Shown: positions 2,241 through 29,844 of the stretch, in pieces
Layout of the letters: each line of letters begins with the position of its first letter
Position numbering within the stretch: the first letter of the stretch is position 1
Assembly: GCA_021647785.1 (NCBI GenBank)
Contig: JAKIUC010000051.1
Location: forward strand, 1-33,201
From: Melioribacteraceae bacterium
Lineage (GTDB): Bacteria > Bacteroidota > Ignavibacteria > Ignavibacteriales > Melioribacteraceae
Direction: 5' to 3'
Length of the DNA: 33,201 bases
Position numbers and translations under genes: made by a program
The notes under the pieces: generated by a model
Told to the model about the DNA's origin: nothing
Database searches by the model: none
The model's input: only the letters and a program-made list of their open reading frames with translations

Positions 2241-2405
2241 TAAATCCCAAGAAAATTGATTAATTCTCTTGACATTTCAAAAAAAAATGATTATAATAGA
2301 AATGTAGTAAAACAAACATTTTTTAATGAAAGATGTAGTAAACAGTACAAAATAATTTTAAGGTATTATAATAAAAATTTACACTCATTCGAAAGGCAAA
2401 TAATT

Positions 2406-3215
2406 ATGGCTGGAAAACAGAATAGTCCAATAACTTTAATCAACAATCTATACGCCTCTTTAAGTAAATCAGAAAAGAAGGTTGCTGAATATATTCAAGA
2501 ACATATGGATGAGGCTGTACTTTTGTCTTTGCAAGGTGTTGCAAAAAAGTGTAAAACAAGTGATCCTACTGTTCTTCGGTTTTGTCGTTCATTAGGATAT
2601 CATGGTTTTTCAGACTTTAAGGTATCATTAGTACCAGAACTACTACGTAATGGGAAAACGGTATATACGGATTTAAATAGTAGTGACGAACCTAAAAGTA
2701 TAAAAGATGTGTTTAAAAAGAATTTAAGTATTCAAACAGATTCAACTCTTGATAATATAGATATAAAAGAGCTAAGTAAAGTTTCACGTAAAATCTTTTC
2801 AGCAAATAGAGTAGTTGTTATTGGTTTGGGGGGGTCTGCTGGAGTTGCTCAAATATTTTGTGATTCACTTGGTAGTCTTGGAATATTTAGTGCATATTTT
2901 AATGATCGTTCAATAATTCAACATATTGCTACAATTATAAAACCTAAAGATATTCTAATTGGTATCTCTCACTCTGGAGAAACAGAGGAGGTTGTCGCAG
3001 CAATAAGAAAGGCAAAAGATATTGGAGCAACAACTGTAGGAATATCAAATTCTGTACATTCAAGTTTTGCTGATATAGCGCAAATCCCTCTAATAACAGG
3101 AGTTCCTACAAACTTAATGGGAAGTTATTCTTGTCAAGCTAGAATATCCCAGTTAGTCATTTTGGAACTAATCCTCAGTGAAATCGCAAAATTGTTTAAA
3201 AAGAAAAACTCCTAA
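2406..3215 (+). CDS. MurR/RpiR family transcriptional regulator (HTH + SIS)
   Basis: A 269-residue protein from the ATG at 2406. The frame is open from 2256, but the preceding 50 codons are not conserved-looking and the family's N-terminal helix begins right after MAGKQNSPITLIN. An HTH_6 domain covers about residues 1-80, with SKSEKKVAEYI and the recognition region KTSDPTVLRFCRSLGYHGFSD. A SIS phosphosugar-binding domain starts near residue 136 (VVVIGLGGSAG) and carries the SHSGET loop at 188-193. RpiR proteins sense phosphorylated sugars or polyols and repress or activate nearby catabolic genes. The neighbouring genes are for glycerol phosphate, so glycerol-3-phosphate is a plausible effector, but that is inference. 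It stands as the first gene before the secreted-protein gene, with 115 bases between. Confidence 0.93.
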   Translation: MAGKQNSPITLINNLYASLSKSEKKVAEYIQEHMDEAVLLSLQGVAKKCKTSDPTVLRFCRSLGYHGFSDFKVSLVPELLRNGKTVYTDLNSSDEPKSIKDVFKKNLSIQTDSTLDNIDIKELSKVSRKIFSANRVVVIGLGGSAGVAQIFCDSLGSLGIFSAYFNDRSIIQHIATIIKPKDILIGISHSGETEEVVAAIRKAKDIGATTVGISNSVHSSFADIAQIPLITGVPTNLMGSYSCQARISQLVILELILSEIAKLFKKKNS

Positions 3216-5140: not shown

Positions 5141-5200
5141 CTTTTCAGTTGCAATTGTATTATACATCAAGAATTTAGTTTTAGAATAATTTAATAGTTG

Positions 5201-8065: not shown

Positions 8066-8138
8066 ATTGAAATGTTAATAATTATAATTGAAATAAAAAT
8101 ATTGCCAAATGGCATGCAGAATTATTCAGGAGAATTGC

Positions 8139-11100: not shown

Positions 11101-11321
11101 TTGATTTTGTAAACCTTCCAATGGAATGTACAATAAGCATTTTTACAGTAAGTGGAAAGCTAATTACAATTCTTAATCATAGTGCTTTTCAGGATAATGG
11201 ACGTGAACCTTGGAATTTAACAACAAGAGATGGTCTTGAAGTAGCATATGGTATTTATTTCTTTCATGTGGAAGCACCAGGAATAGGTGAGAAAATTGGC
11301 AGATTTGCAATCATTAAGTAA
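8139..11321 (+). CDS. Giant T9SS-sorted surface protein with calcium-loop repeats
   Basis: 1060 residues from ATG 8139, chosen because AGGAG sits at 8128-8132 and a signal peptide starts there (MNKLIIIKMVLLVALF). Two clusters of Asp/Asn-rich loops resemble calcium-binding dockerin or thrombospondin-type loops: DLNDNGILDPGEDLNNNGIL near residues 145-165, and a longer run near 345-430 with DNDEDGMVDE, DDNGNGIWDPEE and others. Residues about 525-640 look like a fibronectin-type segment (VYLVWDAVAESS). The end has the NIYVVPDPYV...FVNLPMECTISIFTVSGKLI pattern of a FlgD-like/T9SS sorting domain, finishing GIYFFHVEAPG...GRFAIIK. This protein type recurs in Ignavibacteria, Calditrichota and relatives next to PorV-like proteins. 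It is probably the surface partner of the TonB receptor just upstream; no enzymatic motif was recognised. Confidence 0.82.
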   Translation: MNKLIIIKMVLLVALFSSSNIVSQEQKDNGRLSKTNFSFFLNRTGVHTGNLVRSAYSNYGNIGSRTLSEARMEWPVGSGVTYGFEFIFFTASEVVTDDGETIHIISERYSGANRDVPSPEDHNWGWEPKSGYFNDGEIHRGVNEDLNDNGILDPGEDLNNNGILDLELFNTKEFPAMSHLPGTWPYDWPEGSFIGDAGSRRNKWNGFYGPYARADQESYYVMDDRSNDEFPYFPFPENKEPFLEGGIRGVGLEVSVRNLQWSNPQAEDIIISTYHIKNVSDKPLDKNIVGMYVDADVGQGDSEDDVSSFDTFDDIAYQWDVEGLDLQGRATGYFGFAFLQSPGLIDGIDNDEDGMVDESQENGIDDDGDWIAFSDDNGNGIWDPEEQLNDDTGTDGLGPFDNDYAGPDPDGTQGNASPDRGEPNFEFTDNDEIDQIGLTSYFSGGTGGNFVPKDDENYWQTIIRPGIFTPASFGFDVAFSYGSGFFSIAPGQTETFAIASLFGNDFDDILRNKRTMQKIYDADFSFVKPPKNSNLKAIVGDKKVYLVWDAVAESSRDPIYGADFEMYKLYRSTDPYFNSIKTISDAFGNPVLWEPVAQFDLNNGLNGPHPIPLDGLGVSYDMGNDSGLRHSYVDYSVDNGRTYYYALVSVDKGYDVDFYDRGISEKENLLPISPTESTKIIEVDILGNVITLGINVVAVMPVEPAAGNIPPKFESTMEHTSGNATGLVSTFIVNPEEVVDRTYEIFFTDDSTLEHLTTHFTIIDQESDEVLLEGTSSDYESEDFEKVLVDGLNFVFENDAKAEPEKVEWFSGSNLEINMSEPSVSQPIDFEIRFFDEIADTSYHQLSNFRIPVKFQVWNITDDVKMEFQFIDVEIDTSASVEVGDVITLIAERSGRNLTTTWSLDFSVGGINTIQIPPVGGDKILVETTKPFSSNDTYSFETNGWDKQGEKNESILDNIYVVPDPYVAVNTLEYKQSAALSGRGERKIDFVNLPMECTISIFTVSGKLITILNHSAFQDNGREPWNLTTRDGLEVAYGIYFFHVEAPGIGEKIGRFAIIK

Positions 11322-11356
11322 TTGATATTACTTTGAGAAAATTTGGAGTTAAAAAT

Positions 11357-12463
11357 ATGACTGTAGTTAGATTTAATAAAAATATTGATAAAATATCTCA
11401 GAGGTACAAGACTTTGAAACATCAATTAATCTTTCTTAGTGCATTGTTACTAATTCTAATAGTATTTTTACCTAGTAATTCTATTGCCGGAGAGGATGAA
11501 CCTCTTAGTTCTAATGGAAAAAATGTTGGTACAACTGCTGCGGCTTTTCTTGAAATTGGAGCAGGTGCAAGAGCTCAAGCAATGGGTGGGGCATATACCT
11601 CAATTTCAGAAGATGCATTTTCAATGTATTGGAATCCTGCTGGTATCAGTGATGTTAGCGGAGTTGAAGTAGTTGTCTCACACACCAATTGGATTTTTGA
11701 AACCAACTATGATTATATTGGAATAGTTTCATCTGTCGGTGATATGATTACTATAGGTGCCAATGTTACAAGTTTTGGTGTTGGTGATCAAATTGTTCGT
11801 GCTGTTGGTTACGAAGAGGGTACTGGTGAAGTTTACTCGGCACAAGATTTTGCTATAGGTCTCTCTTTAGCTATGAATGTAACAGACAGATTTTCATTTG
11901 GAATGAATGCAAAGTATATCGATCAAAGAATTTGGCATAGTAGTGCAACTGGCTTTGCAATTGATGTTGGTGCTTTATACAAAACACAACTTGATGGTTT
12001 ACAAATGGGTTTCAGTATCTCCAACTTTGGAACCAATATGCAAATGGCTGGAAGAGATTTAATTAATGCTATCGATCCTGATATCATTAATGAAGGTGTT
12101 GATAAGATTCCTGTAAATTATGAGACAGGTTCATTTGGACTTCCTATGTTATTTAGATTTGGTGTATCTTACCAAATGGATTTCCCTTCTGTACATTCTA
12201 AATTATTAGTTGCAACAGATTTGCTAAAGCCAAATAATAGTGAAGAGAGTATTAACATTGGATTAGAGTACGTAGTTTACGATATGGTAGCTCTCCGTGC
12301 AGGTTATAAATCTCTTTTCCTTGATGAAGGTACAGGTGGTTTATCATTTGGTGGTGGTATAATTATAGCTTCCTCTTCAATCAATCTATTAATCGATTAT
12401 GCCTATATAGATTTAGGTATGTTAAGTTCTGTACATAACTTTGGAATAAATCTGAAGTTATAA
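11357..12463 (+). CDS. PorV/PorQ family outer-membrane protein
   Basis: 368 residues from ATG 11357, chosen for GGAG at 11345-11348; an upstream in-frame TTG at 11333 lacks a ribosome site. The N-terminal signal (LIFLSALLLILIVFLPSNSIAG) precedes the family start GTTAAAFLEIGAGARAQAMGG, then AYTSISEDAFSMYWNPAGIS. The NPAG motif is shared with FadL/PorV barrels. PorV shuttles T9SS cargo from the translocon to the anchoring machinery in Porphyromonas. The rest is a string of amphipathic beta strands ending LGINLKL, as expected for a barrel of about 14 strands. Its position straight after a T9SS-sorted protein suggests a dedicated export partner or surface anchor for that protein rather than the general PorV. 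Confidence 0.88.
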   Translation: MTVVRFNKNIDKISQRYKTLKHQLIFLSALLLILIVFLPSNSIAGEDEPLSSNGKNVGTTAAAFLEIGAGARAQAMGGAYTSISEDAFSMYWNPAGISDVSGVEVVVSHTNWIFETNYDYIGIVSSVGDMITIGANVTSFGVGDQIVRAVGYEEGTGEVYSAQDFAIGLSLAMNVTDRFSFGMNAKYIDQRIWHSSATGFAIDVGALYKTQLDGLQMGFSISNFGTNMQMAGRDLINAIDPDIINEGVDKIPVNYETGSFGLPMLFRFGVSYQMDFPSVHSKLLVATDLLKPNNSEESINIGLEYVVYDMVALRAGYKSLFLDEGTGGLSFGGGIIIASSSINLLIDYAYIDLGMLSSVHNFGINLKL

Positions 12464-12499: not shown

Positions 12500-14068
12500 A
12501 TGAGTATAAGCAATTATAAAATAACATTATATCAAATTTTCTTATTCGGATTTTTTCTCCTTACTGTAGATGGATGTTCTAACAAAAAAAATGATTTTGA
12601 AAAAAATATAATTGCTTATGTTGGAGATCATGAGATATCTGTTGAAGATTTTAGACTAAACTATGAATTTGGATTTGCTCATCTTAAAGCAAAAGGTAAT
12701 AAAAAATTATCATACTTAGAGTACATGATAGATGAAGCTTTATTATCACAAGAAGGATATCGCTTAGAGTTAAATTTAAGTGAGGATATTAAAAACAAAG
12801 AGAAAGCATTACTCACTGAATTGTTGGTCGAAGAACTATTTAAGAAAGAAGTTGATGATAAAATAAATATATCTGATGATGAAATTAAAGAAGCAATATC
12901 TAAGTCGAATGTAAAATGGAAATTGCGTTACTGGGTTGAACCAGATTTGAAGGATGCTAAAAGAGTCTATAGCTCAATACGGAAAAGTAGCTATGAAGAT
13001 GTTATTCAAGGTTTGCTAAGTAGTCAAGAAGTTAAAAGTAATATTAAAGATTATGAAACTGATTATTTGACATGGCTAGATATGCCACCATTACTATTAG
13101 CAAAAATTAAAGACCTTGAGATTAACAAAATATCTAAGCCTATTTTAGTTGATAACGTCTATATTCTGGTTGAAATTATTGAGATTGCTTCAAACATACT
13201 TTCGGATTATGACTATCAAGCTACTTCAGATAAGTATAAGCAAATTCTTTTTTATAGAGAGCAAAAAAAAAAGACTGCACTATTTCTTAAAAGTTTTATG
13301 ATTCCAAAGGAAGTTATTACTAAGGGAACTGGATTCGGTTATATTCTTAACGCTCTTATAGCTTGGAAAAACTCTGAAATAGAAAAGATTACTTTCGAAG
13401 AAGCTATTGAAAATGCAAATAATTCAGAACCAGAATTACTATTGTTAAAGAAGCATTATTATGAAATTTTGGTAACATTTAAAGATGGTACGTGGAGTAT
13501 AAAAGATTTTTTAACTCGCTTCAATTCTTCCGAGATTACAGCAAAAGCATCTGAGAAACGAAAAATGTATAACCAGCTAAATCATCAAATAGCAATGAGT
13601 ATCCGTAACCACTTCTTTGTGGAAGAAGCCCTTGTTCATGGCTTAGATAAATCACCTGATATTAAAAGTGAGCTTAAGATGTGGCGTGATAAGTGGGTAT
13701 ATGATGAGTTAAGAAGAGAGCTTACTAATAATATTAAAATTGATGAGGCTACTGCATTAGAATACTTTAATACTCATAAAAATATTTATAAAACTAAAAA
13801 TGGGTTAGAAGCAACTTTTGATGAATTTGGTAGCCAGGCTAAGTATGATGCTTACTTTAGTCAAACTTTTAAGATACTTGAAAATAAACTTAAATATCTC
13901 AAGAAAGAATTTCCTGTAAGAATAAATAGAGAGTTATTGGATTCTGTAAAAGTCTTTGACACAGAAAAATCTAGATGGTCTACAGTTTTTCTTGTTAAAG
14001 GAAATAGTAACAGAATAGCAATACCTACAGTTGATCCATCTTGGGGTTTGAAAAATGTGAAAAAATAA
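12500..14068 (+). CDS. SurA/PpiC-like lipoprotein (periplasmic chaperone or isomerase)
   Basis: 522 residues beginning with a lipoprotein signal; the lipobox ends TVDGC near residue 26. A SurA-type N-terminal domain follows: IIAYVGDHEISVEDFRLNYEFG, then a helical region with SYLEYMIDEALLSQEGYRL. A PpiC-like region is expected at about 130-230, but its usual parvulin sequence is weakly kept, so isomerase activity is doubtful. The C-terminal half repeats helical segments (IDEATALEYFNTHKNIY). SurA-like proteins escort outer-membrane proteins through the periplasm. Being last in the receptor/T9SS/PorV block, this one may be a private chaperone for those barrels. The ATG at 12500 has no clear ribosome site. 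A 26-bp palindrome lies 16 bases after the stop. Confidence 0.78.
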   Translation: MSISNYKITLYQIFLFGFFLLTVDGCSNKKNDFEKNIIAYVGDHEISVEDFRLNYEFGFAHLKAKGNKKLSYLEYMIDEALLSQEGYRLELNLSEDIKNKEKALLTELLVEELFKKEVDDKINISDDEIKEAISKSNVKWKLRYWVEPDLKDAKRVYSSIRKSSYEDVIQGLLSSQEVKSNIKDYETDYLTWLDMPPLLLAKIKDLEINKISKPILVDNVYILVEIIEIASNILSDYDYQATSDKYKQILFYREQKKKTALFLKSFMIPKEVITKGTGFGYILNALIAWKNSEIEKITFEEAIENANNSEPELLLLKKHYYEILVTFKDGTWSIKDFLTRFNSSEITAKASEKRKMYNQLNHQIAMSIRNHFFVEEALVHGLDKSPDIKSELKMWRDKWVYDELRRELTNNIKIDEATALEYFNTHKNIYKTKNGLEATFDEFGSQAKYDAYFSQTFKILENKLKYLKKEFPVRINRELLDSVKVFDTEKSRWSTVFLVKGNSNRIAIPTVDPSWGLKNVKK

Positions 14069-14237: not shown

Positions 14238-15584
14238 TTGACAACAGCAAAAAGTACTTTCAAAAAAAATCCAAAATATGAATTAGCAAGATACAAAGCA
14301 TTTGGAATATCTTGGTTGGCATATGCTGGCTTTTATCTAACGCGTGCTTCTTTTTCTGTTGCGAAAATTGGAATTGCAGATGACCCAAATGTTACTTTAA
14401 CACTAGAGCAAATGGGAATAATAGATGGTCTTTATCTTATTGGTTATGCCATAGGGCAGTTTGTTTGGGGAATACTTGGCGATAAATTTGGAACTAAAAA
14501 AATAGTTCTTGGTGGATTAACAGCATCAATTATTGCTGGCTTTGCAATGGGTGTCTCCTCAATTATGCTTGCGTTTGGTGTCTTCGCACTTATTCAAGGA
14601 TTAAGTCAATCAACAGGATGGGCACCACTGGCAAAAAATATTACTAAGTGGTTCTCCTTAAAAGAGCGTGGTGTTGTGATGGGCTGGTGGGCAACAAACT
14701 ATACCATTGGTGGATTAATAGGTGCTCCAATTGCAGGCTTAGCAGCAGCATATTTTTTAGATTGGCGATTTGCATTTTTTATTCCAGCGCTAATTCTTTT
14801 AGGTGTATTAGTTCTATTTTATTTTATCCAAGTAAATAAGCCTGAAGATATTGGACTTCTACCAATTGAAGAATATCATAAAGAAATTGAATTAGCTGAA
14901 GAGAAAAAAGCAATTGAAGAAACTAACCATGTTAAAGAGAGCAGTAGTGAATCTCTAGATGAGGGATCTTGGCAGATGACACTAAGTGTTATCAAAAATC
15001 CAATGGTTTTACTTTTAGGAACCATGTATTTCTTTTTGAAACCAACACGTTACGCAATACTATTTTGGGGACCTTTATTTATTAGTGATACTTTAGGAAC
15101 TGGAATGGTTGAGTCTGCATTTGTTAATGCTGCATTTTTCCTTGCAGGTCCTCTTTCAGTACTTGCTGGAGGTTATGCTTCTGATAAAATATTTGGTTCA
15201 CGTAGAATGCCTTATGCTGCAATTTCTATGTTGTTGTTATCAGTTCTATTGTTTTTCTTCAATGACCTTGCATCTATTCATAGTATGACGGTTTCAGCAG
15301 CAATATTATTTCTTGCTGGATTCTTAATCTACGGACCTGATTCTCTTGTAAGTGCAACTGCGGCTGTCGATTTTGGAACAAGCAAAGGAGCTTCAACAGC
15401 TTCTGGGGTTATAAATGGTATGGGTTCTATTGGTGCTATTGTGGGTGGAACAATACCTGGATTTTTTAAGGTAACATGGGGATGGGATGGAGTTTTTATT
15501 TTAATGGCAGGATCAGTTTTAATTGCTGGTTTGCTAATGGTTGCAAAATGGAATGCACTTCCAGATAATGTTGATGGAAATTGA
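14238..15584 (+). CDS. glpT: OPA-family major facilitator, probable glycerol-3-phosphate:phosphate antiporter
   Basis: 448 residues from a TTG start at 14238, supported by CGGAGA at 14225-14230 and no better in-frame start. Twelve predicted membrane helices in two halves, with an acidic-basic cytoplasmic loop at about 215-245. The N-terminal WLAYAGFYLTRASFSVAK matches the organophosphate:Pi antiporter signature. Arg36 and Arg271 (KPTRYAILFWGP) sit at the places of the two phosphate-binding arginines of GlpT (Arg45 and Arg269 in E. coli). GDKFGTKK is the usual loop 2-3 motif. The family imports glycerol-3-phosphate, hexose phosphates or phosphoglycerate in exchange for phosphate; the adjoining dehydrogenase and glycerol kinase make glycerol-3-phosphate, or a glycerophosphodiester, the best guess. 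First gene of the operon. Confidence 0.87.
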   Translation: MTTAKSTFKKNPKYELARYKAFGISWLAYAGFYLTRASFSVAKIGIADDPNVTLTLEQMGIIDGLYLIGYAIGQFVWGILGDKFGTKKIVLGGLTASIIAGFAMGVSSIMLAFGVFALIQGLSQSTGWAPLAKNITKWFSLKERGVVMGWWATNYTIGGLIGAPIAGLAAAYFLDWRFAFFIPALILLGVLVLFYFIQVNKPEDIGLLPIEEYHKEIELAEEKKAIEETNHVKESSSESLDEGSWQMTLSVIKNPMVLLLGTMYFFLKPTRYAILFWGPLFISDTLGTGMVESAFVNAAFFLAGPLSVLAGGYASDKIFGSRRMPYAAISMLLLSVLLFFFNDLASIHSMTVSAAILFLAGFLIYGPDSLVSATAAVDFGTSKGASTASGVINGMGSIGAIVGGTIPGFFKVTWGWDGVFILMAGSVLIAGLLMVAKWNALPDNVDGN

Positions 15585-15596
15585 AAATTATTGAAA

Positions 15597-17159
15597 ATGG
15601 GAAATAAGAAAATGAATAAGTCCGGAAAACTTTTGTATAATTCATTAAATGACAATTATGAGGAGTCATTAAAATTTAAAGATGTTTCACAATTAGGTGA
15701 TACCCCTTATGATGTAGCAATTGTTGGTGCTGGCATAGTCGGTACAGCATTAGCATATAAGCTTTCACAGTACAAAGTGAAAACATTGTTAATAGAAAAA
15801 AACTATGATGTTGGTGAAGGAACAAGTAAAGGAAGTAGTGCAATAATACATACAGGTTTTGATGCTCCTGTTGATACTTTGGAATCGGAATTGGTAACAA
15901 AAGCATCGTTAGAGTGGCCCAACCTTGCTGAAAAACTCAAAATACCTTTCAAAAATTGTGAAGCAATTGTTATTGCCATTGATGAAGAACAGGAAAAAAA
16001 GTTACAAGTAGTTTACGATAAAGGAATAAAAAATGGTGTAACTGATATTAAAAAATTAAGTGGGGAAGAAGTAAAAGAATTAGAACCAAATGTATCTGAA
16101 AAAGTTAGAGGTGGTGTTCTTGTTCCGCGTGAATCCCTTGCAGATCCTTTCTCTTCTTCAATTGCGTTTTCAGAAATAGCCATGCAAAACGGTACTGATA
16201 TTATTCTTGGTGTTGAAATTATAGATGTTGAAAATAAAAGTGAAGTGATAAAATCTCTTGTTACAGCTTGTGGAAAAAAAATAAAAACTAAAAGAATTGT
16301 AAATGTTTGTGGGCTTGGTAGTGAAAAGTTTGCCAAGATTTATGGTGGAGAAAATTTTGATACTAATCCAAGACGTGGACAGTTTTTAATTTTTGATAAA
16401 CATAGTGGAACTAAAATAAGTCGGATATTCTTACCTATTCCAACTGCTGTAACTAAAGGAGTTTTGGTCTCTCCTACTATTTTTGGAAATTTACTTGCAG
16501 GTCCAACAGCAGAAGATTACCCACATAGTTTTGAAACAATTTCAGAAACCACCACAGAACAGCTTCAACTATTAAAAGAAGGTGCTTCAAAATTATATCC
16601 AGGACTAAATGAGCAACCTGTAATTAACATCTTTGCTGGAGTACGCTCCAATTGTACACAAGGAAGTTATTGGATTAGATGTAATGACAATAGCCCAGGC
16701 ATTTTAACAGTTGCTGGTATTCGTTCAACTGGTTTTACATCTTCACCAGCATTAGCTCAATATTTAATTTACAAGTTAAAAGACGAACTAGGATTAAAGT
16801 TGGAAGAGAATCCGGATGCAATTGATAGCCGACCAGAAAATAAATGGCCCGGTTGGTGGAAACCACGATATAATAATAAAGAAGCAGTTAAAGAAAATTC
16901 AGATGATGGAAAAGTAGTTTGCTACTGCGAACAAATTACAAAAGGTGATATTATTCGTCATTTAGATTCACCATTAAAACCACGCACTTTAGATTCAATA
17001 AAACGAAGAACCCGTGCTCAAATGGGAAGATGCCAAGGATTTGACTGCATGGTGAATGTTGCTAAAATTATTTCGTACCATTGTGAAATACCGTTAGAAG
17101 GAATTAGCAAACGTGGACCTGGGACTGAGATATCTTCCACTATTCCTTCAAATAATTAA
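15597..17159 (+). CDS. glpA: GlpA-like FAD-dependent glycerol-3-phosphate dehydrogenase with BFD [2Fe-2S] domain
   Basis: 520 residues from ATG 15597; ATG 15612 is also possible, and neither has a strong ribosome site. The N-terminal DAO-type flavin domain has DVAIVGAGIVGTALAYKL (GAGIVG at 44-49) and IEKNYDVGEGTSKGSSAIIH, the dinucleotide fold and substrate-side loop of GlpA/GlpD relatives. The C-terminus carries a BFD-like [2Fe-2S] domain with Cys442, Cys444, Cys479 and Cys484 (VCYCEQITKGD, then MGRCQGFDC), as in the anaerobic GlpA branch, which oxidises glycerol-3-phosphate to dihydroxyacetone phosphate. Twelve bases after the transporter and overlapping or touching the next flavoprotein gene, so the two probably form a complex. 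No GlpC-type Fe-S membrane subunit is seen here. Confidence 0.88.
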   Translation: MGNKKMNKSGKLLYNSLNDNYEESLKFKDVSQLGDTPYDVAIVGAGIVGTALAYKLSQYKVKTLLIEKNYDVGEGTSKGSSAIIHTGFDAPVDTLESELVTKASLEWPNLAEKLKIPFKNCEAIVIAIDEEQEKKLQVVYDKGIKNGVTDIKKLSGEEVKELEPNVSEKVRGGVLVPRESLADPFSSSIAFSEIAMQNGTDIILGVEIIDVENKSEVIKSLVTACGKKIKTKRIVNVCGLGSEKFAKIYGGENFDTNPRRGQFLIFDKHSGTKISRIFLPIPTAVTKGVLVSPTIFGNLLAGPTAEDYPHSFETISETTTEQLQLLKEGASKLYPGLNEQPVINIFAGVRSNCTQGSYWIRCNDNSPGILTVAGIRSTGFTSSPALAQYLIYKLKDELGLKLEENPDAIDSRPENKWPGWWKPRYNNKEAVKENSDDGKVVCYCEQITKGDIIRHLDSPLKPRTLDSIKRRTRAQMGRCQGFDCMVNVAKIISYHCEIPLEGISKRGPGTEISSTIPSNN

Positions 17160-17176
17160 TGCAAGCGAGAGAGAAA

Positions 17177-18148
17177 ATGAATTCTAATAAAGATTATAAA
17201 GCTATTATCATTGGTGCTGGTCCAGCAGGAATTGGAGCTGCGATGAAGTTATACAAAAGTGGAGTTAAGTCTATTCTTGTAGTTGATAGAAATGATAGAA
17301 TTGGTGGTATTCCATCTTTTTATAAAAAGAAAAAAGGTGGAGTAAGAACATTTATGAGATGGTCAAGAGGTGGTTATCCAGTGTTTGGTGAAGATTTTGC
17401 TAAATGGCTTGAAAGTTTAATATCTGAAACAGACATTGAAGTAAAATTGGATAGTCAGGTTTTAGAAATTGATGCAAAAAAAAAGAGTGTAACTTTTGTT
17501 AATCCAAAAGATGGAAAAGTAATCGTTTCGGCTGATGCAATTGTAATGGCAAGTGGTTCAAGGGAAGAAAATATTGCAGAAAGAAAATGGCTTGCAGGTG
17601 CAAGACCATCTAGGGTAATGTACACAAAACAGTTGCTTAATTTAGACAGAAATGATTTGCTTCCAATTAAAAAACCTTTAATAATTGGTTCAGATACAAT
17701 TGCCTATGCTGCTGCTGCAAAACTAAAAGTCGCTGGTGCAGCCGATGCCATTATTGTAGATAATAGAAGCAATCCCACATGCCCAATTCATGAGAGACTC
17801 TATTTTAGATTCTGGACTAATCCATCTTTTCATGGTTTTAATGTTGATACAATGGAGATAAAAGGGAAAGAATCTGCAACTGGTGTTCTTGTAAATGGTA
17901 AACATTTTGATTGTGACGGAATTGTTATTAGTGGAGAACTTATTCCAAATAGTGAATTGGCTTTAATTGGAGATATAAAGATTGATATACCTTCAAGGGT
18001 TCCAGTAGTTAATAAAGATCATCAACTTTCAGAATCAGGTTGGTTTGCCGCTGGAAATATTCTTGGTGGGTTTCACGGGGCAGAATGGTGTTACTTTAAT
18101 GGGAAAAAAACGGCTGGTTCTGTACTTAAATATATTTCGAAATCTTAA
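17177..18148 (+). CDS. FAD-dependent oxidoreductase, partner of the GlpA-like dehydrogenase
   Basis: 323 residues from ATG 17177, preferred because of GAGAGAG just upstream; an ATG at 17159 overlapping the previous stop by one base is the alternative. A FAD-binding start (AIIIGAGPAGIGAAMKL), a VMASGSREEN strand and a GWFAAGNILGG C-terminal flavin motif define the disulfide-reductase-like fold. The second nucleotide site reads PLIIGSDTIAYAAAAKL rather than a standard GxGxxG, so NAD binding may be altered. In Thermotoga and clostridia, as I recall, a flavoprotein of this type lies between a BFD-containing GlpA and a small DUF1667 protein in glycerol operons. That small protein is missing here and an EutH-like gene follows instead. 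It probably passes electrons from the dehydrogenase onward; the acceptor is unknown. Confidence 0.78.
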   Translation: MNSNKDYKAIIIGAGPAGIGAAMKLYKSGVKSILVVDRNDRIGGIPSFYKKKKGGVRTFMRWSRGGYPVFGEDFAKWLESLISETDIEVKLDSQVLEIDAKKKSVTFVNPKDGKVIVSADAIVMASGSREENIAERKWLAGARPSRVMYTKQLLNLDRNDLLPIKKPLIIGSDTIAYAAAAKLKVAGAADAIIVDNRSNPTCPIHERLYFRFWTNPSFHGFNVDTMEIKGKESATGVLVNGKHFDCDGIVISGELIPNSELALIGDIKIDIPSRVPVVNKDHQLSESGWFAAGNILGGFHGAEWCYFNGKKTAGSVLKYISKS

Positions 18149-18201
18149 TTGTTCATTTTGGTTCTTGCTATAAGAAATATTTTAATTGATAAGGAGTTAT
18201 A

Positions 18202-19326
18202 ATGGAATTCGACCAGATGATTATTTGGCTTATGGCAATTGGAATTCTTATTGGTGGTCTTGATAAGGTTTTTGGAAATAAATTGGGATTGGGCGAACAA
18301 TTTGAAGAGGGCTTTAATGCAATGGGACCATTGGCATTGGGTATGGTTGGCATTGTTACTTTAGCTCCAGTAATTGCTAAGGTATTAGGTCCTGTTATTA
18401 TTCCAGTTTTTACCTTTATGGGTGCTGACCCAGCAATGTTTGCAATGATTTTGGCTAATGATATGGGGGGATATCCTCTTGCAATGGAACTTGCACAAAA
18501 TGAACAGGCGGGATTATTATCTGGACTTATAGTCTCTTCCATGATGGGATGCACACTTGTATTTTCAATTCCTGTGGGCTTGGGGCTTATTGAATTTAAA
18601 GATAGACCATTTTTTGCAAAAGGATTATTGATTGGTTTAATAACGGTTCCAATTGGTGGAATTGCTGGTGGACTAATTGCGGGATTTGATCCTGTATTAG
18701 TTTTAGTGAATAATATTCCTGTTCTTATTCTTTCAATTTTCTTTGTTCTTGGATTATTATTCTTTCCAAAACAAATGATTAGCGGTGCACTGGTCTTTGG
18801 TAAGTTTATTGTAATTGTTATCACAATTGGCTTGGCTGCATCTGCTTTTCAGGAGTTAACTGGTGTTATTATTATTCCTGGTATGGCACCAATAATGGAT
18901 GCAATGGTAATTATAGCTCAGATTGCTATTATCCTGCTTGGTACTTTCCCAATCTTGACGCTAATCACCAAATTTTTAAATAAGCCATTAACTAAACTTG
19001 GTCAAAAATTTGGTATGGATGCAACAAGTGCTGCAGGAATTGTAATCACTTTAGCTAATAGCATTCCGGTTTACAAGATGATGAAGAATATGAATCCAAA
19101 AGGAAAAGTAATTAATACAGCATGGTTGGTACCTGCAACAGCTGCATTGGGCGATCATCTTGGTTTTACTGCAGGTGTAAGACCTGATATGATAACTCCA
19201 GTACTATTTGGGAAACTGATAGCTGGTGTTCTTGCAATTGTGATTTCCCTATACTTCACAAAAGATTTAAATTATGAAATAGAGCAAAGTAAAAAGTTGG
19301 AACAAAAAACTGTTACTACTAACTAA
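18202..19326 (+). CDS. eutH: EutH family permease (ethanolamine or small-alcohol transporter)
   Basis: 374 residues with about ten to eleven membrane helices and a perfect AAGGAG at 18191-18196. It matches EutH along its length: FEEGFNAMGPLALGMVGI near residue 35-52, the conserved ADPAMFAMILANDMGGYPLA near 75-95, and near the end AATAALGDHLGFTAGVRPDM. Slightly shorter than E. coli EutH (about 400). EutH brings ethanolamine into enteric bacteria and usually sits in eut operons with ammonia-lyase and microcompartment genes; none is present here. In this operon it lies between the glycerol-3-phosphate oxidoreductase and glycerol kinase, and there is no GlpF. It may import ethanolamine released from phosphatidylethanolamine, or may have been adapted to glycerol. 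Confidence 0.88.
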   Translation: MEFDQMIIWLMAIGILIGGLDKVFGNKLGLGEQFEEGFNAMGPLALGMVGIVTLAPVIAKVLGPVIIPVFTFMGADPAMFAMILANDMGGYPLAMELAQNEQAGLLSGLIVSSMMGCTLVFSIPVGLGLIEFKDRPFFAKGLLIGLITVPIGGIAGGLIAGFDPVLVLVNNIPVLILSIFFVLGLLFFPKQMISGALVFGKFIVIVITIGLAASAFQELTGVIIIPGMAPIMDAMVIIAQIAIILLGTFPILTLITKFLNKPLTKLGQKFGMDATSAAGIVITLANSIPVYKMMKNMNPKGKVINTAWLVPATAALGDHLGFTAGVRPDMITPVLFGKLIAGVLAIVISLYFTKDLNYEIEQSKKLEQKTVTTN

Positions 19327-19352
19327 GTTGAATTAGAAAAGGTATAAAATAA

Positions 19353-20861
19353 ATGAAATACTATCTAGGCATAGACCAAGGTACCACGGGAACAACATCA
19401 ATAATATTTGATGAAGAATGGAATATATGCGGCAAAGGATATGTTGAGCACACACAGTATTATCCAGAGCCAGGTTGGGTTGAACATGACCCAATTGAAA
19501 TTTGGAACAAAACAAAAGAGTCAGTTGCTATTGCTTTAGTTCATTCAGGCATAAATGCAAAAGATCTAAGAGCCATCGGTTTGGATAATCAAGGTGAAAC
19601 ATGTATGGCTTGGGATAAGAAAACAGGTAAACCAATTTATAATGCAATAGTTTGGCAAGATAGAAGAACAGCAAAAAGAGCAGATGAGCTAAAAGAAAAA
19701 TACAATGAACTTATTGTAAATAAAACTGGATTAACAATTGATGCATACTTTTCTGCATTAAAAATAAAGTGGATATTAGAAAATGTATCGGATGCCAAAC
19801 AAAAAGCAGAAAAAGGAGATTTATTGGTTGGAACTTTAGATACATGGCTGTTATGGAAAATGACTGAAGGCGAAGTGTACGTAACAGATTCTTCTACAGC
19901 ATCTCGAACAATGCTATTTAATCTTCATACAAATCAATGGGATGATGAAATTCTTAAAATCATTGGAATCCCTAAATCAATTCTTCCGGAAATAAAAGAT
20001 AGTGCAGAAATCTATGGTTATACTTCAACCGATTTTATCGACGCAAAAATTCCAATAGCTGGAAGCGTTGTAGATCAGGCTGCGGCATTATTTGGTCAGG
20101 CTTGTTTTGAGAAAGGTTCTGTAAAAACAACTTACGGAACAGGTTGTTTTATGCTTATGAATACTGGGGATAAACCAATAGTTTCTAAAAATGGCTTAAT
20201 AACAACGGCTGTATGGAGTTTAGAAAAAAAAATCACATTTGCCCTGGATGGTGGTGTATATATTAGTGGTGCTGCTGTTCAATGGCTTAGGGATGGTCTT
20301 AAAATTATTAAAAGTGCCGATGAAACAGAAGCAATGGCTAAATCAGTTGCAGATACAGGGGGTCTCTATTTTGTTCCAGCATTTACGGGATTGGCTGCAC
20401 CCTATTGGGACCAATATGCAAGAGGTACAATGATAGGAATAACTGGAGGTACTACAAGGGAACACATTGTAAGAGCAACATTGGAAGCAATTGCTTTTCA
20501 AGTAGCAGAAAACTTAGAAGTTATGCGAATGGATTCTGGAATGACTATAGACTCAATGCGAGTAGATGGTGGAGCAGTAGTTAATAAATTCCTAATGCAG
20601 TTTCAAGCTGATATTCTAGGAATACCGGTTGATGTTCCAGTAATTCACGAAACTACTGCTTTAGGTGCCGCATACCTTGGTGCACTGGGAGTTGGTGATT
20701 TTAGTTCGGTTGGTGATATAAATAGTAACTGGAAATTAAACAAAAGATATATTCCATCTATAGGTGATGACCAAAGAGAAACGAAGATGGAACAATGGAA
20801 AAAAGCTGTAAAACGTTCAACTAATTGGATTAATAAAATGCAAGGAGAAAAAAATGCTTAA
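19353..20861 (+). CDS. glpK: Glycerol kinase
   Basis: 502 residues, the usual length for the FGGY-family glycerol kinases. It begins YLGIDQGTTGTTSIIFDE (phosphate-binding loop) and has the glycerol kinase pattern YYPEPGWVEHDPIEIWN at about 32-48. GLDNQGETCMAWDKKTGKP and VWQDRRT follow, then GSVVDQAAALFGQACFEKG, TYGTGCFML, and in the C-terminal domain DGGAVVNKFLMQFQADILG and ETTALGAAYLGALGVG. It phosphorylates glycerol to glycerol-3-phosphate with ATP, feeding the dehydrogenase encoded upstream. The stop overlaps the next gene's start by 8 bases, so the phosphodiesterase is translated together with it. GlpK over other FGGY kinases is supported by the WVEHDP and ETTALGAAYL signatures and by the neighbours. 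Confidence 0.94.
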   Translation: MKYYLGIDQGTTGTTSIIFDEEWNICGKGYVEHTQYYPEPGWVEHDPIEIWNKTKESVAIALVHSGINAKDLRAIGLDNQGETCMAWDKKTGKPIYNAIVWQDRRTAKRADELKEKYNELIVNKTGLTIDAYFSALKIKWILENVSDAKQKAEKGDLLVGTLDTWLLWKMTEGEVYVTDSSTASRTMLFNLHTNQWDDEILKIIGIPKSILPEIKDSAEIYGYTSTDFIDAKIPIAGSVVDQAAALFGQACFEKGSVKTTYGTGCFMLMNTGDKPIVSKNGLITTAVWSLEKKITFALDGGVYISGAAVQWLRDGLKIIKSADETEAMAKSVADTGGLYFVPAFTGLAAPYWDQYARGTMIGITGGTTREHIVRATLEAIAFQVAENLEVMRMDSGMTIDSMRVDGGAVVNKFLMQFQADILGIPVDVPVIHETTALGAAYLGALGVGDFSSVGDINSNWKLNKRYIPSIGDDQRETKMEQWKKAVKRSTNWINKMQGEKNA

Positions 20862-22359
20862 AAAAACATTAACAATATTATTATTTCTTTCGATTTTTAT
20901 TTCGTGTGATAATAAAAAAACAAATGAATTTTTGCGTCTACCCATGGTAGGTTTAATTCTTAATAACCAAGTCCCAATTTTAGTTAAAGCAGTTTCTGAT
21001 GGTACAGTTAGAATTGAATACAAAAAATTAGAAACAGGATCTATTTCATCTACAAAGTGGGGTAACCTAACTGAAGAGAATAGTTTTTCAACAAGTTTAG
21101 TTTTGAAAAATTTGGATTACAATTCTGAATATAAATACAGAGTGGAATTTGATGACAATAATTTCTCTAAATGGTTTAGTTTTAAAACTTTTCCTGAACA
21201 AAGAAAACCTGGAAAATTTAGTGTGGTTTTTTCAAGTGGGATGAGAGAAAAATATTCAACTCCTTATGTGTACGAAAACATAAAAAAAATGTCTCCAACA
21301 TTTGTTGCTTTATTAGGCGACCAGATGTATGGCGATTACGACGGCAATCTAAACAAATTAGAAGAATATCTTGCAAATGATTATCTTCGTAAAAAGAAGA
21401 TTGAGGAAGGTGAAGTTATGCTGAAAGAAAAAACAGTATTGGATGCTTTCCGTGGGAAGTACCATCGTACTTTTGTTGAGAGCTTTCAACATATGAGTAG
21501 CGAAATTCCAATTATGGGTATTTGGGATGACCACGATTTTGGTCAAGATAATAATGATAGAACATATCCATACAAAGAAATTGCTAGAAAAGTCTTTTTG
21601 GAGACTTACCCTACTTATCCTTACGAGTTAGAAACTGGTGGAATTTTTTATCGCTTTTTAATTGCAGATGTTGATGCTTTTGTTTTGGATACGCGTTGGT
21701 ATCGCTCTCCAATGCAGAACGCTGAAGGAGAGGATAAAATAATGCTTGGCGAGAAACAACTTGCATGGTTTCTAAATGGATTGAAACAATCGACGGCACG
21801 TATAAAAATTATCTTTTCGAGTATCCCTTTTAACGATTATGGTGGTGATACATCACGAGACAGACCTGGATATTATGACAGTTGGATGGGTTATAAATAT
21901 GCACGCAACAAAGTAATGTCCTTTATTAAAGAGAATAAAATTACCGGTGTTGTAATCCTCTCTGCAGATCAACATTATCCAAGTACACATATATTAAATT
22001 GGAAAGCACCAATAAAACATGTTTCAAAAACTGATACTTCAGTAGTTTATTCGCTTTCAGAATTAGATAATGCAATTTTTGATTTTTCTTCTGGACCATT
22101 TAATTATAAGAAAGCTGCAGGACATCCATTACTTCCCGAAAACCAGAAAAATCCTTTAATCTCTTATGAAGTTTATAGACCAGCGTGGGCAATGCCAGAA
22201 AACAAAGAAGATAGACCTACTGTTTCTGCTTCCGTATTTGGTATGGCTGAAATAGATACTGAAAGCTCACCAGCTACAGTTACAGTAAAGTTTTATGAGT
22301 TGGATAAAGAAACAAAAAACATGGTTGAGATTTATAAAATAAGTTTGTTAGTTGAGTAG
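20854..22359 (+). CDS. PhoD-like phosphodiesterase/alkaline phosphatase lipoprotein
   Basis: 501 residues. The N-terminus MLKKTLTILLFLSIFISC is a lipoprotein signal with the lipid-bearing Cys18, so the enzyme should be anchored in the envelope and face the periplasm or the outside. A fibronectin-like N-domain (about 25-115) precedes a calcineurin-type metallophosphatase domain of the PhoD family. Its metal ligands are GDQMYGDYDG (Asp156), IWDDHDFGQDNN (Asp and His227) and VVILSADQHYPS (His374). PhoD enzymes cleave phosphodiesters such as teichoic acids and phospholipid head groups, or phosphomonoesters. Translationally coupled to glycerol kinase by an 8-base overlap, with AAGGAG ahead of the start; this suggests that it generates glycerol or glycerol-3-phosphate, and possibly ethanolamine, for the rest of the operon. 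Confidence 0.88.
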   Translation: MLKKTLTILLFLSIFISCDNKKTNEFLRLPMVGLILNNQVPILVKAVSDGTVRIEYKKLETGSISSTKWGNLTEENSFSTSLVLKNLDYNSEYKYRVEFDDNNFSKWFSFKTFPEQRKPGKFSVVFSSGMREKYSTPYVYENIKKMSPTFVALLGDQMYGDYDGNLNKLEEYLANDYLRKKKIEEGEVMLKEKTVLDAFRGKYHRTFVESFQHMSSEIPIMGIWDDHDFGQDNNDRTYPYKEIARKVFLETYPTYPYELETGGIFYRFLIADVDAFVLDTRWYRSPMQNAEGEDKIMLGEKQLAWFLNGLKQSTARIKIIFSSIPFNDYGGDTSRDRPGYYDSWMGYKYARNKVMSFIKENKITGVVILSADQHYPSTHILNWKAPIKHVSKTDTSVVYSLSELDNAIFDFSSGPFNYKKAAGHPLLPENQKNPLISYEVYRPAWAMPENKEDRPTVSASVFGMAEIDTESSPATVTVKFYELDKETKNMVEIYKISLLVE

Positions 22360-22406
22360 AAACAGTGAGGCGTAGTAGTCCTTCCACTGCTATGGCTAAT
22401 TGGTTG

Positions 22407-22450
22407 GGGATTTTAGTGGGAAATAGTGAAGCCTGCTAAAATCCCTTTTT
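22407..22450 (+). terminator. Rho-independent terminator of the glycerol-phosphate operon
   Basis: GGGATTTTAG at 22407-22416 pairs with CTAAAATCCC at 22436-22445, with further partial pairing inside (GGG with CCT), then five T and an AT-rich tail. It lies about 50 bases after the PhoD stop. Confidence 0.85.
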
Positions 22451-22658
22451 AATTTTAAGTCAATACGATTAAACGGAAAGATGGAAGTCTTTTTGAAGTT
22501 AAGGTTCGCTCTGTAAAAAAAATCACACTTGGATGTAAAAGGTATATGTTACAATAATAAAAATTACAATAATAAAAACAAAATGATTTGAGCATTAAAG
22601 AAAAAAAAATAATATATTCACTTGTTAACTATTAATTTCTAATAACTCGGAGGAAACA
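22451..22658 (+). other. Leader region before the FadL gene, with a 15-bp tandem repeat
   Basis: No gene is supported here. Two perfect, directly adjacent copies of a 15-base unit (TTACAATAATAAAAA) lie at 22549-22563 and 22564-22578. A 32-codon stretch without stops (about 22460-22556, containing FEVKVRSVKKITLG) has no start codon and may be a gene scrap or chance. The FadL promoter presumably lies in the AT-rich part. Confidence 0.5.
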
Positions 22659-23900
22659 TTGAACAAAAAATTACTTTTTTTGATTATTTCACTGATAGTA
22701 ACTACTCAAGTATTTGCTAGTGGATTTCAAATTAATGACCAAGGCGCAAGGGGTATGGCAATGGCAAGTGCCGGTGCAGCTTTAGCATTTGATGCTTCAA
22801 CTCTTTTTTATAACCCAGCAGGGTTATCGCAACTATCGGGTACACAAATAATGTTTGGTACTACACTCGTTAAACCAAGTTCATCTTTTAGAGGAGTTAG
22901 TCCGGAAATTGATGAAGTATCAAAGGAGCCTGCTCTTTTTACTCCAATTAACCTATACGTATCGCATCAATTAAATGATGACTGGGCAATTGGTTTTGGA
23001 GTTAATAACCAATTTGGACTTGGCTCTGAATGGGATGAAAATTGGATAGGTAGATATCTTACTATCAAAACACAATTAACAACTTTTTACCTTACAGGTG
23101 GTGCTTCGTATAAATTTTCTGATAAACTTTCTGTTGGTCTTTCAGCATCGTATGTTATAGGAAGTGTTGAAATTTTGAGAAAATCTCGATTAGACCCATT
23201 TGATGCAGATGCAACAATTGATCTTTCAGGAACTGGAAATTCTTTTGCTTATGCATTGGGACTTCTATATAAGCCAAGCGATTTAATTAGTATTGGTCTT
23301 AATTTTAGAAGTACTACTAAAATAGAATTTAGCGGTTCAGCAGATATTACTGCTCCAAGTGCATTGAAGAGTTTGCTACCTTCTGGCAATATTACTGCCC
23401 CAATAACTTTACCATTAAATGCTACTATTGGTTTAGCACTAACACCATCGGACGAATGGACAATTACTTCAGCATTCCAATATGTAGGATGGTCAAGTTA
23501 TGATAAAATGGAAGTTACATTTACTGACTCTGACCCAGATTATGTAAGTACATCTCTTAGAAATTCTGAAGATAGTTGGATAGCACGTCTTGGTGCAGAG
23601 TACTCAATGAGTAGCGATTTAGACCTACGTGGCGGGTTATTCTATGACAAAAACCCTGCACAAGATGAATGGCTTGAACCATCTCTTGGTGATGCAGATA
23701 GGTCAGGTATTACTTTGGGTGTTGGGTATAAAGTATCTTCAAATATTACAATTGATTTAGCTTATATGTTTGTACGATTTGTTGAAAGAACTATTACTAA
23801 CTCTAAAGTGGATTACACAAGTGGTGTTGCTGGGTTTAACGGAACTTATAACTCAACAGCAAACCTTCTCGGTATTAACTTTACATATTTAATTAACTAA
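22659..23900 (+). CDS. FadL/OmpP1/TodX family outer-membrane transporter
   Basis: 413 residues from a TTG start; GGAGG at 22649-22653, five bases before, leaves little doubt. A signal peptide (LLFLIISLIVTTQVFA) is followed by the FadL N-terminus SGFQINDQGARGMAMASAGA and the family's NPAG in LFYNPAGLSQLSG. The remainder alternates amphipathic strands, ending LLGINFTYLIN. FadL barrels pass long-chain fatty acids and other hydrophobic compounds across the outer membrane by lateral diffusion. The next gene, 16 bases on, is an SGNH hydrolase lipoprotein, so the pair fits release and uptake of acyl chains. Other hydrophobic substrates cannot be excluded. Confidence 0.9.
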   Translation: MNKKLLFLIISLIVTTQVFASGFQINDQGARGMAMASAGAALAFDASTLFYNPAGLSQLSGTQIMFGTTLVKPSSSFRGVSPEIDEVSKEPALFTPINLYVSHQLNDDWAIGFGVNNQFGLGSEWDENWIGRYLTIKTQLTTFYLTGGASYKFSDKLSVGLSASYVIGSVEILRKSRLDPFDADATIDLSGTGNSFAYALGLLYKPSDLISIGLNFRSTTKIEFSGSADITAPSALKSLLPSGNITAPITLPLNATIGLALTPSDEWTITSAFQYVGWSSYDKMEVTFTDSDPDYVSTSLRNSEDSWIARLGAEYSMSSDLDLRGGLFYDKNPAQDEWLEPSLGDADRSGITLGVGYKVSSNITIDLAYMFVRFVERTITNSKVDYTSGVAGFNGTYNSTANLLGINFTYLIN

Positions 23901-23916
23901 GGATAGGAGAATATAC

Positions 23917-25326
23917 ATGTTGAACAACGTGAAATCCCGTTTATTCTCGGGAAAAAAATATATTATACTTCTTGCAATGACATCGCTCCTTTTCTTTGTT
24001 GCTTGCGAGGATAGATCAGAACTAACAGCACCTTCAGCACCAAATACTGGAAGTGCCGATTTTACACGATTTGTTTCTATAGGAAATAGCTTAACTGCCG
24101 GATACCAAAGTGGTTCACTTTACGAAAGCTCTCAAGTCTATTCTTTTGGAAAAATAATGGCTGACCAAGTTGGAGTCTCTTATGAGCAACCTCTAATCAG
24201 CGAACCAGGAATACCTGGTAAATTGGAATTGCATGATTTTACACCAACAATTATTCCAAATCCTGGAATGGGAACACCAACTAATTTAGCTTATGCAGCT
24301 CCTTACAATAATCTCGGTGTACCTGGGGCTATTATTTTTGATTTAACAGATGAAACAGATTTTGCTACTAAATCAGAAGCAAGAGGCAATCCATATTTTA
24401 GTATAGTACTTAGAGATCAACAACTTGGTGCTAGTATTATTAAACAAGCGTTAAATCTTCAGCCAACATTTATTAATCTTTGGATTGGAAATAACGATGT
24501 ACTTGGTTATGCTACAAGTGGAGGGTCTAGTGGAACTGATGCTACAGGGTTACTCCCTACAGATCCAGCAGTATTCGGATTTTTCTATAACGCAATTGCT
24601 ACTGCTTTAACAGACTCTACTGGTGCTAGAAAAATTGCAGCAGCAAATATTCCTGATGTACAAAATATACCTTTCTTTACAACAATTGGTCCTAAAATAG
24701 GAGTAGCTTTAATTGATGTTATAGCTGTAAATCCGGCAGTAGTTGGGTTATTTTATCAAAAAAATGGTGAAGCAGTTGCATCTAGTTTTGCAACTCCTGA
24801 GCAACTGATTGCTGGCGATATACTTCTTACATTAGCTGCTAGTCCTTACGCATCTCTTGTTGGAGTGCCTACTGGTAAATTTTATAGAGAAGTTATGGGA
24901 GGTTATGTACCTCCTGGTATCGATACTACTCAAGCATTTGGATTACACCCGCAAAATCCGTGGCCTCATCCTTACACACTTGATGCTACTGAGTTAGCTC
25001 TTGTTCAAACACATACGGGCGCATTTAATGCAGTAATTAAAGCAACAGTTGATGCAAACTCAGATACATGGGTTTTAGTTGATATTAATTCTTACTTTGC
25101 AAAGTTAGCTGATGGTGGACTTATTATTGATGGAATTAACTTTAGTAATAGCTATATACTTGGTAATACATTTAGCTTGGATGGAGTTCATCCAACAACA
25201 CAAGGTTATGGCGTTGTTGCCAATGAGTTTATTAGTGCAATAAATGGCAAGTTTGATGCTACAATTCCAAGAGTTAATGTCTCTACATTACCTGCTAGTA
25301 TTGGATTAGGTAATGCTACTCCTTAA
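23917..25326 (+). CDS. SGNH/GDSL-type hydrolase lipoprotein
   Basis: 469 residues with AGGAG at 23905-23909. The N-terminal lipoprotein signal ends FFVAC (Cys about 29), followed by a low-complexity linker (EDRSELTAPSAP). Block I is FVSIGNSLTAGYQSG, with Ser58 as the probable nucleophile (GNSL in place of GDSL). Block III is NLWIGNNDVLG (Asn192/Asn193), and the catalytic Asp422-His425 pair is in LDGVHPTTQGYGVVANEF. All four SGNH blocks are recognisable. These enzymes hydrolyse ester bonds of lipids, acyl groups or acetylated sugars; paired with a FadL-type porin this is most likely a surface or periplasmic lipase/esterase. The same two-gene arrangement is frequent in Bacteroidota-like genomes to my knowledge. 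Confidence 0.88.
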   Translation: MLNNVKSRLFSGKKYIILLAMTSLLFFVACEDRSELTAPSAPNTGSADFTRFVSIGNSLTAGYQSGSLYESSQVYSFGKIMADQVGVSYEQPLISEPGIPGKLELHDFTPTIIPNPGMGTPTNLAYAAPYNNLGVPGAIIFDLTDETDFATKSEARGNPYFSIVLRDQQLGASIIKQALNLQPTFINLWIGNNDVLGYATSGGSSGTDATGLLPTDPAVFGFFYNAIATALTDSTGARKIAAANIPDVQNIPFFTTIGPKIGVALIDVIAVNPAVVGLFYQKNGEAVASSFATPEQLIAGDILLTLAASPYASLVGVPTGKFYREVMGGYVPPGIDTTQAFGLHPQNPWPHPYTLDATELALVQTHTGAFNAVIKATVDANSDTWVLVDINSYFAKLADGGLIIDGINFSNSYILGNTFSLDGVHPTTQGYGVVANEFISAINGKFDATIPRVNVSTLPASIGLGNATP

Positions 25327-28873: not shown

Positions 28874-28926
28874 AATAAAAAAAAGATTTTTTAAGAATAA
28901 TAATTTAGTAACAACTATATTTAAGA

Positions 28927-29835: not shown

Positions 29836-29844
29836 ATATTTATT

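Follow-up and report, generated by a model that had tools for sequence, protein, structure and literature searches.

A gene block with a EutH-type permease and a glycerol kinase-like protein lacking Arg83 in a Melioribacteraceae bacterium

On contig JAKIUC010000051.1 of a Melioribacteraceae bacterium (GCA_021647785.1; 33,201 nt, forward strand, here called the window) we found a block of genes that runs from an RpiR-family regulator to a PhoD-type phosphodiesterase (2256-22359). Its products probably cut phosphorus-linked molecules outside the cell and burn the small glycerol-like part of them. We tentatively interpret the region as a mobile block for phosphodiester scavenging and catabolism, whose likeliest substrate would be a glycerol-like amino alcohol, such as serinol or 3-amino-1,2-propanediol, and not glycerol itself. 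An amino alcohol would be likeliest because the kinase of the block, annotated as glycerol kinase (GlpK), lacks Arg83 and because the permease encoded next to it alternates between EutH and APC permeases, families that are otherwise tied to amino alcohols and amines.

Gene content and limits of the block

The initial annotation had drawn one lipid-utilisation locus over 14238-25326, with genes for PhoD, an SGNH hydrolase, FadL, a major facilitator superfamily (MFS) transporter, EutH, a glycerol kinase and the GlpA/GlpB pair. All eight gene identities were confirmed by Pfam and NCBIfam profile scans of the window proteins, from which the following gene calls are taken; G and L numbers are our handles for genomes and for stretches of DNA compared with the window.

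2256..3215, + strand: RpiR-family regulator (HTH_6 and SIS; Pfam), first gene of the block
3331..5094, + strand: surface protein (FlgD_ig, Por_Secre_tail) sorted by the type IX secretion system (T9SS) (Pfam; 55-56% in L139 and L144, 40% in L143)
5198..8065, + strand: TonB-dependent receptor (Pfam; 68% in L139 and L144, 49% in L143)
8109..11321, + strand: p8109, large exported protein of 1070 residues and possible receptor partner, no Pfam match (69-71% in L004, L135 and L139, 54% in L143)
11333..12463, + strand: PorV-like outer-membrane protein (Pfam; 80% in L004)
12500..14068, + strand: SurA-like protein (weak match, below cut-off)
14238..15584, + strand: MFS antiporter of the organophosphate type (Pfam/NCBIfam)
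15591..17159, + strand: GlpA/GlpO-type FAD oxidoreductase with a BFD [2Fe-2S] domain (Pfam/NCBIfam)
17159..18148, + strand: GlpB-like pyridine nucleotide-disulphide oxidoreductase (Pyr_redox; Pfam), partner of GlpA
18202..19326, + strand: EutH of the kinase-linked clade (Pfam/NCBIfam, tree)
19353..20861, + strand: FGGY kinase annotated as GlpK (Pfam/NCBIfam)
19593..19595, + strand: codon of kinase Gly81, at the position of E. coli GlpK Arg83
20854..22359, + strand: PhoD-type phosphodiesterase, last gene of the block (Pfam; kept in L004, L005, L007, L135 and L137)
22566..25326, + strand: FadL and SGNH, outside the block (22659-25326 opens a core block)

The original locus was drawn wrongly: the true unit runs from RpiR to PhoD, and 22659-25326 begins another block. 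The upstream half, with the T9SS protein, the TonB receptor, p8109, PorV and the SurA-like protein, had been missed; all genes from RpiR to the SurA-like one lie on the same strand as those of 14238-25326.

Close relatives of EutH are located on four named contigs. The order MFS-GlpA-GlpB-EutH-kinase-PhoD is kept in L004, L005 and L007, with 66-90% identity (49-58% for PhoD), and in L004 this part is preceded by p8109, PorV and SurA-like genes. Both L004 and L005 carry a HisJ-family phosphatase between EutH and the kinase and a beta-lactamase-family gene before the last PhoD. These two stretches are assigned to different lineages, and their DNA is 90-97% identical across most of the length that they have in common, so that misbinning or a recent transfer is suggested; one contig of the Labilibaculum bin may be misplaced. 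G125 (L139) and G135 (L144) possess the whole block, with RpiR at its head and two PhoD genes at its end, and G184 contains a divergent form in which a type I phosphodiesterase is encoded and no PhoD was found. The block is thus retained in metagenome-assembled genomes as well as in other members of the class. Homologues of the kinase (E up to 1e-120) were detected in eight of the 197 genomes of the class, including the window genome itself. Since PhoD, MFS, GlpA/GlpB, EutH and kinase stay together in three stretches and RpiR heads the blocks of G125 and G135, a scavenging locus is likely, and RpiR, proposed earlier as its possible controller, belongs to it.

FadL and the SGNH hydrolase do not share this linkage. 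The SGNH gene was found in 30 of 57 genomes of the family (own genome included); in 28 of the 29 other loci it adjoins FadL, the exception (L112) being known for only 129 bases past the gene, and in 23 of the 29 it is followed by SPOR. Beside these 29 loci no match to EutH, kinase or PhoD was obtained in stretches of up to ~1.5 kb on each side, and L004, L005 and L007 (the latter two short contigs) gave no match to FadL or SGNH. The two genes thus form a family-wide core pair outside the inserted block. A single locus reaching from PhoD to SGNH was ruled out by this linkage and by the insertion boundary. Of the four genes expected to stay together in relatives, EutH, PhoD and the kinase do so and FadL does not; two of the eight genes are scattered independently of the rest. 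FadL and lipase are therefore not inherited together with the block, and the acyl-chain part of the proposed lipid locus falls away.

In genomes of the same genus the block is absent before FadL. Instead, G1202 and G493 carry an open reading frame (ORF) of 777 residues directly before it (MutS2-like by eye), and the apparent end of a similar ORF is seen in G1209. DNA similarity to the window begins at 22566 (G1202) and 22580 (G493), so the block is most simply explained as a horizontally mobile insertion ahead of the core block. By composition the block does not stand out: gene GC is 29-37% inside it and 24-37% in the other genes listed.

The kinase without Arg83 and its changing permease

According to an excerpt of PMC3245297, Arg83, Glu84, Tyr135 and Asp245 of GlpK form hydrogen bonds with glycerol, and GlpK signatures are identical across clusters. 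The window kinase has Gly81 at the position of E. coli Arg83 (NQGET, where E. coli has NQRET) and Val240 at that of Gly244, directly before the catalytic Asp245. The signature R83, E84, Y135, D245, F270 reads G, E, Y, D, F in the window and hence departs from that of GlpK. Three related kinases score below the GlpK equivalog cut-off (L145 with 418, L146 with 375 and L143 with 581 bits).

We compared 31 kinases, a set without L124 and L126 (both Arg83) and without duplicate stretches of the same genes. Gly83 is present in 21 of them, combined with V, Y or C at position 244, and each of these is clustered with a GlpA-type gene. Tblastn searches of the 21 stretches revealed EutH in seven, an APC permease in eight (the distant APC of L154 not counted), neither in six and MIP in none. 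The other ten kinases have Arg83 and Gly244, with MIP in five stretches and EutH or APC in 0/10. The free tree places the window group inside the Arg83 kinases; a single clade of all Gly83 kinases was not rejected in the approximately unbiased (AU) test (p 0.633; held tree 5.34 log units better), and two independent losses of Arg83 are thus not claimed.

The permease can be exchanged while the block stays. An APC permease (amino-acid/choline type) occupies the exact slot of EutH in G125 and G135; the G135 protein (77% to the G125 one) is assembled as two separate ORFs. In G184 the gene for a 52% relative lies ahead of GlpA. The kinase of L007, a block with EutH, is closest to the kinases of the APC blocks of G125 and G135 (91%), which argues that the permease was replaced within a retained block. 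EutH and the APC/ACT-type permease were apparently exchanged at least twice.

Permease, kinase, GlpA and GlpB form a module of their own, which other phyla have as well, in many cases together with a DeoR regulator. Plasmid relatives of the APC permease lie beside an FGGY kinase and GlpA/GlpB in Streptomyces NBC_00376, Agrobacterium HAMBI 105 and Roseateles XES5, and tblastn showed the same arrangement in two unannotated rhizobial records (L149, L150). A clostridial operon DeoR-EutH-kinase-GlpA-GlpB-DUF1667 is found in G504 and G560. Compared with G560, the window EutH and kinase are 80% and 74% identical but GlpA and GlpB only 41% and 27%, so that permease and kinase apparently travelled as a pair. 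A Pseudomonas aeruginosa stretch (L154) encodes DUF1937, a distant EutH (33%), DeoR, GlpA, GlpB and a Gly83 kinase, with a distant APC permease (23%) beyond a peptidase; in Agrobacterium, DUF1937 lies beside the APC permease instead of EutH.

The window EutH meets the family profiles (501 against 482 bits for NF011666; PF04346, E 4.7e-134). The protein is rare: three of 197 genomes of the class encode it, and the phylum adds one marginal case (four of 395). In a tree of 50 EutH proteins it forms one clade with L004, L005, L007, L042, L006 and L044 (99/98), apart from the eut-operon clade, and six of these seven members have the kinase adjoining or one gene away. In a set of 38 stretches (L042-L079) plus L006, only L042, L043 and L006 gave the kinase, L043 being the same place as L006. 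Of the 14 EutH proteins of the L042-L079 set with 41-54% identity, 11 have eut or microcompartment genes nearby (not L053, L054 and L055). G560 encodes both kinds, one of the eut-operon type and one linked to the kinase. Judged by its place in the tree, the window EutH is not of the eut-operon type.

In the window genome EutB is absent (EutC was not searched) and MIP is likewise absent, and the scanned window genes include no shell protein. Among the genomes compared, G000, G502, G503, G504, G505 and G668 lack EutB, and G066, G119 and G560 have it; MIP is present in G502 and absent from G000, G503, G504, G505, G560, G668, G066 and G119. The lack of EutB and the position of EutH outside the eut clade leave the ethanolamine head group of the initial annotation unsupported.

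At six positions the window EutH has G14, A196, Q217, W308, P311 and A314 where eut-operon proteins have F, F, E, F, S and F. The six kinase-linked EutH proteins, a set to which L044 does not belong, share the changes F14G, F196A, F308W, S311P and F314A at positions kept in 39-43 of the 43 others. The EutH of L154 has G14, Q217, T248 and A314 in common with the window clade (its relatives L155 and L156 0/4, L157 1/4); over all 22 listed positions it shares seven, as many as the unrelated EutH L067, and this convergence is suggestive only. No solved structure matched EutH at E up to 1, and an AlphaFold model (mean pLDDT, the predicted local distance difference test score, of 42.8 from 5 sequences) was not used.

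EutH beside a HisJ-family PHP phosphatase constitutes a third EutH context: in clostridia the two genes are direct neighbours in L068, L072, L074 and L075 (4 loci, 3 genomes). The named substrate of the HisJ family is an amino-alcohol phosphate. In Nitratireductor (L155, 2630-8212) EutH is found with DeoR, a choline/ethanolamine-kinase-like phosphotransferase and a DAO-GCV_T oxidoreductase. In L044 (2533-10506), where the FGGY kinase was not found nearby, an EutH of the kinase-linked clade is located near GAPDH-like, PGK, malic enzyme and sodium:solute symporter genes.

Proposed working and substrate of the block

The MFS protein belongs to the GlpT/PgtP/Uhp group and scores below every NCBIfam cut-off listed, so its substrate is not fixed. 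Of the GlpT positions that we take to be functional, R45 and R269 are Arg here too, whereas H165 is replaced by Tyr and K80 by Gln. The GlpA-type flavoenzyme stays below the curated cut-offs for type 2 glycerol 3-phosphate (G3P) oxidase and GlpA (263 against 460 and 104 against 553 bits), and its best PDB match is a GlpO. PhoD passes the domain profile (PF09423, 124 against 27 bits), does not reach the NCBIfam equivalog (53 against 1000) and has a lipoprotein-like signal by eye.

From the gene content, block limits, permease exchange and residue change, all of which are observed, we infer the following route and its substrate. The TonB receptor with its T9SS/PorV surface parts and PhoD would capture a phosphodiester and cleave it, either in the periplasm or outside the cell. 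The MFS antiporter might import the phosphorylated product and EutH the free alcohol, which would then be phosphorylated by the kinase. GlpA/GlpB would oxidise the phosphate ester to a product at the level of triose phosphate, and RpiR may sense a phosphorylated intermediate. Phosphodiesters as the source are suggested by the GlpT-like Arg pair of the MFS protein, by PhoD and by the TonB/T9SS parts; the amino alcohol is suggested by two carrier families in one slot, the positive charge lost at the glycerol site, the HisJ phosphatases and the choline-kinase-like enzyme. It is possible, if doubtful, that the module as a whole is an unnamed amino-alcohol pathway, with an amine-type permease, a kinase subfamily that has moved off glycerol through the loss of Arg83, and a GlpA/GlpB pair that possibly yields dihydroxyacetone phosphate (DHAP), together with ammonia in case the oxidised group is the C2 amine of serinol phosphate. 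Such a module would span Bacteroidota/Ignavibacteria, Clostridia, Actinomycetes and Proteobacteria, and in the class of the window it would lie inside a phosphodiester-scavenging block.

Several observations weigh against an amino alcohol. With 667 against 590 bits the window kinase lies above the equivalog cut-off for GlpK (TIGR01311), and it keeps the other four of the five signature positions, and GlpA retains motifs like those of G3P oxidases, as if its substrate were G3P. Six of the 21 Gly83 clusters contain neither EutH nor APC, three of the six having TRAP transporters; these counts are not from a random sample, since the plasmid loci were gathered with APC, EutH, kinase and L146-kinase queries, the residue being no criterion. 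As a single origin was not rejected, the 21 Gly83 kinases may represent few independent events. When L044 is included, the EutH clade shows four changes of the kind described above and other clades show 0-4, another clade of three rows being equal, so the residue changes in EutH are modest evidence. Beside three further APC relatives from plasmids (L148, L152, L153) there is no kinase, and since the APC proteins lie below every NCBIfam cut-off listed, the family names of the transporters are weak evidence. The Agrobacterium cluster additionally contains an aldolase and a fructose bisphosphatase (FBPase), which fits plain triose phosphate from glycerol, and the DeoR/GlpR-type regulators of the free-standing modules fit plain glycerol as well.

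The main rival, which we consider rather unlikely, takes glycerol and G3P as the substrate: EutH of this clade would act as a glycerol facilitator that replaces GlpF, and glycerophosphodiesters would be what the locus scavenges. The apparent joint movement of EutH and kinase would agree with it, as would the clostridial operon of G504 and G560, which is arranged like a glycerol operon, and the absence of MIP from five of the six genomes with a kinase-linked EutH; in addition, a title in a reference list speaks of EutH as facilitating the diffusion of uncharged ethanolamine. However, all 21 kinases of such clusters have Gly at Arg83 and an amine-type permease occupies the same slot; the Arg83 comparison displaced EutH as a plain GlpF substitute from the place of best reading. 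P. aeruginosa PAO1 presumably carries a second kinase, of the Gly83 type. In line with the amino-alcohol reading, an excerpt of PMC9765544 reports that PAO1 fails to grow on glycerol when glpK is mutated; it describes glpFKRD as a cluster of its own.

A locus for phosphatidylethanolamine, with G3P entering through the MFS transporter and ethanolamine through EutH, would use the known substrate of the EutH family and account for PhoD and an organophosphate-type MFS sharing one block. It is improbable, given a genome without EutB, a EutH outside the eut clade with E217Q and the losses of Phe, and FadL and SGNH genes unlinked to the block; moreover, G560 has a separate eut-operon EutH besides the kinase-linked one. 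Bacillus PhoD reportedly acts on wall teichoic acid, and the beta-lactamase-family protein of L004 and L005 could be the serine esterase that removes D-alanine while PhoD cuts the polyglycerol phosphate. No beta-lactamase-family protein is encoded among the scanned window genes, however, PhoD and PF00144 are broad families, and the changes in permease and kinase would be left unexplained, making teichoic-acid scavenging very improbable.

The block shares with the glp regulon (GlpF-GlpK-GlpD or GlpABC, GlpT) the kinase family, a GlpA/GlpO-type flavoenzyme, an organophosphate-type MFS and, in the free-standing form, DeoR. It differs from it by having EutH or APC instead of MIP, a kinase without Arg83 and a setting within TonB, T9SS and PhoD genes. 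EutH, described in an excerpt of PMC5821096 as the ethanolamine carrier at acid pH, is the single protein in common with eut operons, whereas EutB and shell proteins are lacking as stated above and this EutH belongs to a separate clade with changes at well-kept residues. A TonB receptor beside phosphodiesterases also occurs in the phosphate-utilisation (Pus) loci of Bacteroidota, which have SusCD-like receptors (PMC8115612, in part); what sets the block apart is its RpiR regulator, partners of the PorV type in place of SusD, and a core for carbon catabolism. No paper among the matches listed pairs EutH with glycerol kinase, glpK or a glycerol facilitator, and the part of PMC6163223 consulted contained nothing relevant.

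If the amino-alcohol reading is true, a set of genes now called glycerol kinase and EutH, and assigned to the use of glycerol and ethanolamine, would be misannotated, and a nutrient pathway not known so far would be marked in several phyla, P. aeruginosa records included. EutH would then also appear as a family of permeases with a wider role than in the use of ethanolamine. Even with glycerol as substrate, the replacement of GlpF by EutH together with a GlpK without Arg83 would need explaining.

Other features of the window

FadL was recognised as a Toluene_X match (Pfam), and the SGNH gene by a GDSL match (35 bits against a cut-off of 24) in which no single stretch is significant alone; downstream of it lie SPOR, SSB, CNNM and other genes. 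An Rfam scan of the window gave no match at the gathering score. Between the SurA-like and MFS genes there is a perfect 27-bp palindrome with a 12-nt loop (14085-14150); the corresponding gap of L004, L005, L135 and L137 showed no such palindrome. Two 93-nt inverted repeats (96%; 29841-29933 and 32257-32349), similar to a miniature inverted-repeat transposable element, flank a gamma-glutamyltranspeptidase gene; the left arm overlaps the start of this gene, and a partial extra copy is located upstream (28813-28874). Gene remnants include a Lon-like fragment (916-1623) and a RhuM fragment (28068-28469), and a transposase-type helix-turn-helix is encoded at the contig end (32856-33200).

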